This document shows positions 6,250 through 8,940 of a stretch of DNA of 35,528 nucleotides, piece by piece; the first letter of the stretch is position 1, and every line of letters begins with the position of its first letter. Origin of the DNA: Candidatus Rokuibacteriota bacterium. GTDB taxonomy: Bacteria > Methylomirabilota > Methylomirabilia > Rokubacteriales > CSP1-6. The stretch spans positions 1 to 35,528 of the forward strand of contig QHTD01000060.1 of NCBI GenBank assembly GCA_003220675.1. Reading direction: 5' to 3'. The notes under the pieces were generated by a model. The model was not told the DNA's origin. It did not search any database and saw nothing but the letters and a program-made list of their open reading frames with translations. Position numbers and translations under genes: made by a program.

Positions 6250-6425
6250 ACTGGTGCGCGCCCGGGCAGGTCTCCTGGCTCTCGGATCGTCCTACTCCCC
6301 GCGCCTTCCCGGCCTCGCGGCCAGTGGCTCTCCGGCGGGTTTCGTCCCCGATTACAGTGACGGGGTCGCGGCGGCCTTCAACCGCCTTCCCTGGGCCCTT
6401 CGGGGCATCCCGGGGCGCGAACAAC
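6250..6425 (-). promoter_or_regulatory. Cobalamin (AdoCbl) riboswitch controlling the cobU-cobT-cobB-btuFCD operon
   Basis: Read on the minus strand, the leader contains the conserved core in the right order: AGGGAAGGCGGTTGAAGGCC, then GCGACCCCGTCACTGTAAT, the B12 box GCCACTGG (plus-strand 6321-6328), GGGAAGGCG, and the 3' closing segment GAGAGCCAGGAGACCTGCC. These match the cobalamin riboswitch consensus closely. It lies about 30 nt before the cobU ATG, so ligand binding probably blocks translation or transcription of the salvage and uptake operon when B12 is plentiful. The ends of the element are approximate. Confidence 0.95.
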
Positions 6426-7408: not shown

Positions 7409-7436
7409 TCGGAAGGGGGGCGAAGCCCCCTTCCGA
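7409..7436. repeat. Palindromic hairpin B between convergent genes (possible bidirectional terminator)
   Basis: tcggaaggggg (7409-7419) and cccccttccga (7426-7436) form a perfect 11-bp stem around gcgaag. It falls between the MBL-protein stop (7388) and the stop of the extended DedA-rhodanese frame (7438). It could terminate both transcripts, but there is no T-run on either side. It closely resembles the copy at 12306-12333. Confidence 0.85.
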
Positions 7437-7437
7437 G

Positions 7438-8373
7438 TCAGCTCAGCGCCTCGAGCGGGAGCCCGCGCTCCCGCCACCCCTCGAGCCCGCCCAGGAGCGG
7501 GCGGACGCGCGTCACGCCGTTACCGCGGAGCTTCATCGCCACACGGGCGCTCGTGGCCTCGTTCGGTCAGGTGCAGTAGAGGACGATGTCGTGGTCGCGC
7601 GGGATCTCCCGATGGCGCTCCTCGATCTCCTCCGCGGTGATCCGGAGCGCGCCGGGGATCGTGTACGGGTCCGCCTCGACGTCGAGCGCCGCGCGCAGGT
7701 CGACCACGACCAGGGGCTCGCCCGCGTCGAGCTTCTGCTTCAGCGTGTCGGGGCTGATCCGCGCGACGCGCAGCCGGCGGCTGACGCGCTGGCGCTGGAT
7801 GAACTTGAGCGCCACGTAGCCTACGACGACGACGATCACCGTGGCGACGAGCCAGGCGCCGAGGCGCTCGGCCCGGCCCACCACGGGCTCGAGTGCCTCG
7901 CCGGCGAGGTAGCCCACGCCCGACCAGATCCCTGTCCAGAGCAGCGCCCCCGCGCCACCGTAGAGCACGAAGCGCGCAACGCCCACGCCGAAGATCCCGG
8001 CGAGCGGCGGCGCCACGGTGCTGAGCCCGGGGACGAACTTCGCGATCAGGAGCGAGCGCGTGCCGTGGCGCGCGAAGAGGTTCTCCGTGCGCCGGACGCA
8101 CGAGTCGGGCTCGAGCGAGAGCCTGCAGAGGAGCGCGAGCACGCGGCTTCCGCGCTGGCGCCCGAGGTAGTACCAGATCAGGTCGGCCAGGAGCGAGGCG
8201 ACCGTTGCGATCACGAGCGCGAGCAGGAGATTGATGCGCCCCGTCCCCGCGAGCGCGCCCACGGCGAGCAGCGTCGGCACCGCGGGGATCGGCAGGCCCA
8301 CCTGCTCGGCGAAGACGAAGCCAAATAGCACGAGGTAGCCATACTCCGTAAGGAACTGGAGCGTATCGTGCAT
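7438..8373 (-). CDS. DedA-family membrane protein fused to a rhodanese domain; in-frame UGA, possible selenoprotein
   Basis: The ORF track stops at 7567 after 268 residues, ending REIPRDHDIVLYCT. The stop is a UGA, and the same frame then reads PNEATSARVAMKLRGNGV and VRPLLGGLEGWRERGLPLEALS to a second UGA at 7438. That is exactly the rest of a rhodanese domain, and relatives of this fusion are expected to read YC-T-C-PNEA, so the UGA stands at the second cysteine. The full product would be 311 residues with residue 269 as selenocysteine. Residues about 1-190 are a DedA/VTT membrane domain (FAEQVGLPIPAVPTLLAVGAL; KFVPGLSTVAPPLAGIFG). The cytosolic rhodanese domain starts near residue 200. A short hairpin follows the UGA. 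Plain truncation or a sequencing error remains possible; no sel genes are in this window. Confidence 0.7.
7538..7569 (-). promoter_or_regulatory. Candidate recoding site: UGA codon plus SECIS-like stem-loop
   Basis: On the minus strand the UGA (7569-7567) is followed after 9 nt by GCCAC (7557-7553), a 10-nt loop beginning GAG, and GTGGC (7542-7538). Bacterial SECIS elements are stem-loops immediately 3' of the UGA inside the coding sequence with guanines at the start of the apical loop. Geometry is compatible, but the stem is only 5 bp and such hairpins are common in GC-rich DNA. Confidence 0.4.
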
Positions 8374-8426: not shown

Positions 8427-8885
8427 TCAGGTGCCGCGCGGCTCCTCGACCTGTCGGACGCGCCGCGAGAGCGTCACGAGGATCTTTTCGGTGAGCCCCG
8501 GGACCTCCTTGAGGAGGCGCCAGAAGTGGGTGCGGTCGATGACGAGAAGCCGCAGGTCAGTCTCCGCCTTCACGGTCGCCGAGCGGGGCTCGCCGTCGAG
8601 CAGGCTCATCTCGCCGAAGAACGCGCCGGGCTGCATGCGGTGCCGCTTCTGGGGAGAGAGCGTCACGAGCGCCGTGCCGTCGATGATGACGAAGAACTCG
8701 TCGCCCGGCTCGCCCGCACGGGTGAGGACGGTGCGCTCCGGCACCTCCACGACTGTGGAGATGTCGGCCACGGCGCGGAGCTGGCGCAGGCTGCAGTCTT
8801 CGAAGAGCGGAACGCGCTCGAGGTGCGTGATTTTCTCGTCACGGGCGACGTGGAACGCGTTGAACATCTTTCCGATGAGCTCCAT
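8427..8885 (-). CDS. Cyclic nucleotide-binding domain protein (CRP-like sensor without DNA-binding domain)
   Basis: 152 residues from MELIGKMFNAF; a GTG one codon upstream is an alternative start. One cNMP-binding beta-roll covers most of the protein: LFEDCSLRQLRAVADI, then RTVLTRAGEPGDEFFVIIDGTALV, and the phosphate-binding cassette FFGEMSLLDGEPRSATVKA with the usual Glu and Arg. The C-terminal helix carries RVRQVEEP. There is no helix-turn-helix, so it is not a transcription factor by itself; it may regulate a partner allosterically. A GAAGGGAAG sequence lies upstream. The neighbouring DedA-rhodanese gene is in the same orientation 53 bp downstream, but no functional link is evident. Confidence 0.85.
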   Translation of the reverse strand: MELIGKMFNAFHVARDEKITHLERVPLFEDCSLRQLRAVADISTVVEVPERTVLTRAGEPGDEFFVIIDGTALVTLSPQKRHRMQPGAFFGEMSLLDGEPRSATVKAETDLRLLVIDRTHFWRLLKEVPGLTEKILVTLSRRVRQVEEPRGT

Positions 8886-8940
8886 CACGCTTCCCTTCGC
8901 TCTGCACGGCCCACGTTAGCCGCAGGTCTCGGTGGCCATC

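Follow-up and report, generated by a model that had tools for sequence, protein, structure and literature searches.

The UGA at codon 269 of a DedA-rhodanese fusion gene from Candidatus Rokuibacteriota, a bacterium of soil or groundwater, is almost certainly decoded as selenocysteine (Sec). A sequence-only reading had listed the gene as a candidate selenoprotein, and we now hold that view with confidence because homologues have either TGA or a Cys codon in this column, a SECIS-like hairpin with frozen synonymous codons follows the TGA, the TGA form correlates with selB, genes selA, selB, selC and selD can be traced in the genome, and selection continues past the TGA. Judged from its sequence, the product is very probably a selenoprotein that takes some part in thiol or sulfur chemistry.

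The gene lies in a window of 35,528 nt (contig QHTD01000060.1, the whole stretch that we analysed), on whose minus strand (8373-7438) it reads ATG ... VLYCT-TGA-PNEATSARVAMKLR ... LLGGLEGWRERGLPLEALS-TGA. The features to which we refer are as follows.

7438..8373, minus strand: coding sequence of the predicted DedA(VTT)-rhodanese selenoprotein, 311 aa, Sec as residue 269
7906..8289, minus strand: VTT/DedA membrane domain (Pfam PF09335), residues 29-156
8125..8127, minus strand: Cys83 of the DedA-loop motif C83-x8-C92, from alignments
8098..8100, minus strand: Cys92 of the same motif, from alignments
7468..7755, minus strand: rhodanese domain (Pfam PF00581), residues 207-302
7573..7575, minus strand: codon of Cys267, the invariant Cys of the YC-x-U motif in two alignments
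7567..7569, minus strand: in-frame TGA, read as Sec269, second position of C267-x-U269
7535..7551, minus strand: SECIS-like hairpin, upper stem CGCC/GGCG, loop CGUGU, the loop beginning 21 nt after the UGA
7438-7440, minus strand: terminal stop TGA of the coding sequence
7410..7435, no strand assigned: 10-bp perfect inverted repeat just past the stop codon, between two converging genes
8427..8888, minus strand: cyclic nucleotide-binding domain protein, 53 bp upstream of the DedA-rhodanese gene

The in-frame TGA and its column in homologues

The frame comprises 268 residues, the in-frame TGA and then 42 residues to the next stop, and the context of residue 269 is LYCT-U-PNEATSARVA. In the window protein, Pfam scored VTT/DedA at 59.3 bits against a gathering score of 33.9 and Rhodanese at 41.2 bits against 22.2. 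Since the latter match covers residues 207-302, the rhodanese domain continues across the TGA. Cys267 sits at the usual catalytic position of rhodaneses. The membrane-anchored rhodanese that the sequence-only reading had described, with a UGA at a Cys position and the rest of the domain in the 42 codons behind it, thus fits the domain assignments.

When 95 genomes of the phylum were searched in all six frames, about 50 full-length homologues emerged, 49 of which were read. A single in-frame TGA was present at column 269, in the same context, in 47 of the 49, and the other two have Ser (L047, YCASPND) and Glu (L059, YCAEPKE). Scanning named genome contigs added 80 further loci from Methylomirabilota, Nitrospirota, Acidobacteriota, Verrucomicrobiota and bins labelled Deltaproteobacteria; column 269 is TGA or a Cys codon in all of them. 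Over the 129 homologous genes, a total that counts some genes in both sets, 83 have TGA at the column, 44 have TGC or TGT, and 2 have a codon for Ser or Glu; once copies are removed, 72 TGA genes and 43 Cys genes remain. Cys267 is invariant throughout the alignments. The earlier proposal that the UGA replaces the second Cys of a Cys-x-Cys motif, for which an alignment of homologues had been named as a check, is therefore borne out across several phyla.

Coding sequence is also maintained behind the TGA, as the same reading had argued against decay. In 10 close pairs, dN/dS beyond the TGA resembles dN/dS before it and is below 0.3 in nine; the exception, L022/L023, involves three changes. The homologues are free of random stops and frameshifts in this region, save for one additional in-frame TAG in L162, which may be a damaged gene. 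Were the TGA an ordinary stop, the fusion would be decaying or truncated and the downstream codons a remnant. UGA does serve as the terminal stop of the window gene and of many homologues. However, 83 genes have TGA at one exact column, other stops have not accumulated, and dN/dS is alike on both sides; together with the SECIS-specific synonymous freezing and the selB correlation described below, this makes an ordinary stop extremely unlikely. A sequencing or assembly error at 7567-7569, for which one could point to the draft state of the genome (437 contigs), is more remote still, given that the TGA is shared by two more paralogues of this genome (C379 and C424) and recurs in dozens of genes of other assemblies.

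The SECIS-like hairpin and the Sec machinery

A published model of bacterial SECIS elements (bSECIS) has G[G/U] in a small apical loop, a spacing of 16-37 nt and an energy of -7.5 kcal/mol or lower (PMC13188914). The hairpin of the TGA genes, of the form AGCGCC-loop-GGCGCU, whose loop starts 21 nt behind the UGA, agrees with the loop and spacing constraints of this model. A 4-bp upper stem with a G[G/U] loop is kept in 71 of 71 distinct TGA genes, compared to 13 of 43 Cys genes. The window's own local hairpin has 4 bp and an energy of -5.5 kcal/mol against the published limit of -7.5 (PMC13188914), its outer pairs being lost; a stem this short is the least that the model allows, and the hairpin is weaker than in relatives, whose stems are longer. 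The 52 nt behind the window TGA fold at -14.0, but in another shape than the conserved hairpin.

Among the 72 distinct TGA genes, codons +6, +7, +9 and +10 hardly ever depart from AGC, GCC, GTG and GCG (z of -13 to -16.5, relative to the codon use of the gene concerned). Arg at +8 is encoded by CGG, CGT or AGG in these genes and never by CGC (0 of 72), which is used in 12 of 40 Cys genes. Much of the synonymous freedom at the frozen codons is regained in Cys genes; their Ser at +6 is still biased to AGC/AGT, and those with Thr at +9 mostly use ACG for it. In one homologue, L098, a C-G pair of the hairpin is replaced by U-A in a compensatory change.

The selA, selB, selC and selD genes had been proposed as a further check, and the search for them was fruitful. 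The draft genome contains selA, selB (368 bits) and a selD that is itself of the Sec type, with an in-frame TGA at AG-U-ASKM. An Rfam search of the genome returned no intact tRNA-Sec and only ordinary tRNAs below the cut-off. We found selC split by a contig break: its first 28 nt end contig C1 (L215) and its last 39 nt begin contig C392 (L048), both identical to the 94-nt selC of three genomes of the same genus (G036, G037 and G038), while the middle 27 nt, anticodon included, fall in the assembly gap. These three relatives have selC immediately upstream of the region matching C392 (selA-selB). Automatic tRNA-Sec searches therefore miss selC in the window's genome because the break falls inside it.

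Across 50 named genomes, with selB scored as present at E <= 1e-60, 24 of the 25 that carry the TGA form have selB, against 6 of the 25 that carry the Cys form (Fisher p = 1.9e-7, a value that is only indicative because the genomes are not independent of one another). The Cys form thus occurs in lineages mostly without Sec machinery, and the TGA arrangement recurs in dozens of related bacteria.

These results also bear on readthrough by another route, in which Trp or Cys would be inserted through a near-cognate or suppressor tRNA or through a code change. Such readthrough would by itself account for selection beyond the TGA, but UGA remains in use as a terminal stop, the alternative residue at column 269 is Cys and not Trp, the hairpin and selB dependence indicate the Sec route, and the genome has selA, selB, selD and the two ends of selC. 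We regard it as very improbable and retain Sec insertion.

Relatives and the history of column 269

Both halves of this arrangement have been seen separately; their combination was found described nowhere in the literature that we searched. Rhodaneses with a CxU motif are catalogued as 'rhodanese-like form 3, CxU' (PMC13188914). The family model NF041203 (rhodanese_LYCAU, rhodanese-related (seleno)protein) has Cys-x-Sec at the same place as the window protein (LYCTU-PNEA), and all 61 of its members that we scanned match the model. The window protein scores 88.3 bits, below the curated cut-off of 115, and differs in carrying the DedA membrane domain; within the phylum the cut-off is passed by two stand-alone proteins only and by no DedA fusion. 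Stand-alone members of this type in the phylum have the same YCxUP block and hairpin sequence. Another rhodanese selenoprotein, TsoB (rhodanese/DsbD-like, NF045694), has by its name a DsbD-like and not a DedA part, and a UxxxxU motif; the window protein matches it only at E 0.03.

The same block also occurs beside other partner domains in the phylum, in trypsin-like protease- and guanylate cyclase-rhodanese proteins (L185-L187 and L189-L190) that have YC-x-TGA-P and the hairpin sequence. In L185, L186 and L187 (G041:C154, G062:C142 and G040:C64), a trypsin-like serine protease is followed by a rhodanese with YC-x-TGA-P-D-E and the SECIS-like hairpin sequence; L188 has Ser at the TGA column. 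The rhodaneses of L189 and L190 (G094:C81 and G015:C52) have YCS-TGA-PGEATSARVA. In L189 the rhodanese precedes an adenylate/guanylate cyclase domain and the hairpin has a compensatory C-G to U-A change, and L190 is cut by the contig end.

DedA-rhodanese fusions are already known from work in which Sec is not mentioned (PMC10127716, PMC12893004), and the link between the two domains has been called unclear (PMC10127716). Proteobacterial proteins annotated as 'DedA family protein/thiosulfate sulfurtransferase GlpE', such as that of a Xanthomonas sacchari plasmid, have the same architecture, C83-x8-C92 and C267-x-C269, with Cys instead of Sec. They are 31-38% identical and form the outgroup of the tree with the UGA forms; the four plasmid fusions that we aligned are all Cys-x-Cys. 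A literature search, largely without subscription papers, returned no paper joining a DedA or VTT domain to a selenoprotein, nor any that named the CxU rhodaneses with trypsin-like protease or guanylate cyclase domains. A groundwater paper reports 63 selenoproteins in a Methylomirabilota MAG (as cited in PMC13188914), and its full list may include the DedA-rhodanese family.

We built a tree of 95 rows with column 269 masked, using a quick method and rooting on the plasmid-borne Cys fusions; several of its forks are weak. Column 269 needs at least 9 state changes on this tree, and the deepest ingroup branches are Sec. On this topology, Cys appears to be a derived state in Nitrospirota, Verrucomicrobiota and some Acidobacteriota. 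The three paralogues of the window's own genome fall in different parts of the tree.

Possible chemistry of the fusion protein

With Sec almost certainly inserted at UGA 269 by SelB and tRNA-Sec, directed by the hairpin 18-34 nt downstream, the product is a DedA/VTT membrane domain joined to a rhodanese with the active-site loop C267-x-U269-P-N-E. We suggest that this protein would most likely act as a membrane-bound thiol/selenol oxidoreductase: C267 would accept a persulfide or disulfide, which U269 would attack to give a C267-U269 selenenylsulfide. The C83/C92 pair of the DedA loop and a thioredoxin-reductase-like partner could then supply or accept reducing power. Redox or persulfide chemistry at C267/U269 seems to us reasonably probable, and a relay through C83/C92 is a more tentative proposal. 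We favor a membrane thiol/selenol or persulfide relay because of the pattern of C83/C92, the mismatches to E. coli YqjA and the neighboring Pyr_redox_2 genes, each of which is taken up below.

Both loop cysteines are retained in every examined fusion with U or C at 269; the pair is partly lost in L047 (Ser269) and wholly lost in L059 (Glu269). We had considered that the pair might be unique to rhodanese fusions, and dropped the idea when the C-x8-C motif was seen in 9 of 14 DedA homologues matched without a rhodanese part. Its coupling to residue 269 is only suggestive for the same reason. The DedA-only carriers are L171, L172, L173, L175, L178, L179, L181, L182 and L184, the last with a small insertion.

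A protein with Sec inserted could still be mainly a DedA/UptA-type undecaprenyl-phosphate flippase whose rhodanese end is a sensor or regulator. The VTT domain, which is shared with the flippase YqjA (DedA/UptA) of E. coli, would suit that role, as would a weak similarity to the NCBIfam model of UptA; COG0586 DedA proteins are putative flippases, some of them fused to rhodanese (PMC10127716). The UptA score of 58.9 bits is, however, far under the cut-off of 250. Compared to YqjA, the window protein keeps E39 and differs at three of four positions (D51 to V, R130 to K and R136 to S). Acidic and basic residues of this kind are reported to be essential, the R130/R136 numbering being given for YghB (PMC10127716). 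YqjA also lacks both loop cysteines. The three changed residues and the cysteines absent from YqjA therefore speak against a plain flippase, which we consider unlikely.

It is somewhat less doubtful, yet still not what we expect, that the Sec-containing domain is a sulfur or selenium transferase, carrying a persulfide or selenosulfide, and not a redox relay. Its rhodanese fold, the place of C267 at the catalytic position and a weak similarity to MoeB/MoeZ-type and GlpE rhodaneses would all agree with transfer. The usual active-site loop of rhodaneses is of the CxxGxR type, which the CxUPNE loop does not resemble; moreover, with another redox residue two positions further along, a persulfide would more likely be resolved than donated, and a conserved sulfur-acceptor neighbor was not found among the loci examined.

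No neighbor common to all phyla was found around the loci examined; pirin, nitroreductase, SDR and Pyr_redox_2 genes recur beside subsets of them. Pyr_redox_2 flavoprotein genes lie near six loci only (L030, L053, L035, L037, L132 and L154), and no such reductase was seen as a neighbor in the window. Three of these flavoproteins were scanned, and one has a cNMP-binding domain (L053) and one a response regulator (L132). In the window itself, the cyclic nucleotide-binding domain gene upstream is a possible operon partner. The inverted repeat past the stop codon is a candidate terminator; it has no T run and was not called by a terminator scan.

Two further observations concern the neighborhood more broadly. 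A pirin family gene lies within about 3 kb of L121, L028, L084, L140, L134, L111, L086 and L088, which belong to several phyla, and of L167 (Xanthomonas). A cobalamin riboswitch (Rfam RF00174, 84.1 bits, window 6268-6392, minus strand) stands upstream of cobalamin-type biosynthesis and transport genes.

It is tempting to speculate that C83, C92, C267 and Sec269 form a four-residue membrane redox relay, by which the membrane loop and a flavoprotein reductase would exchange electrons or sulfane sulfur, and that one large clade started out with Sec and changed it repeatedly to Cys, often with loss of selB. As a whole, this picture is a conjecture that may well prove wrong in some part.

With the DedA fusion, the CxU rhodaneses gain a membrane architecture, and the TGA-SECIS block is now seen in no fewer than four settings: with DedA, with a trypsin-like protease, with a guanylate cyclase and in stand-alone proteins. 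Gene calling that stops at UGA is suggested to truncate such genes just before the active-site Sec. Naturally occurring pairs of Sec and Cys forms, the latter found among others in complete Nitrospira genomes, allow one to ask how Sec benefits a rhodanese, and DedA-rhodanese fusions, whose link was unclear (PMC10127716), may now be tied to a testable thiol chemistry.
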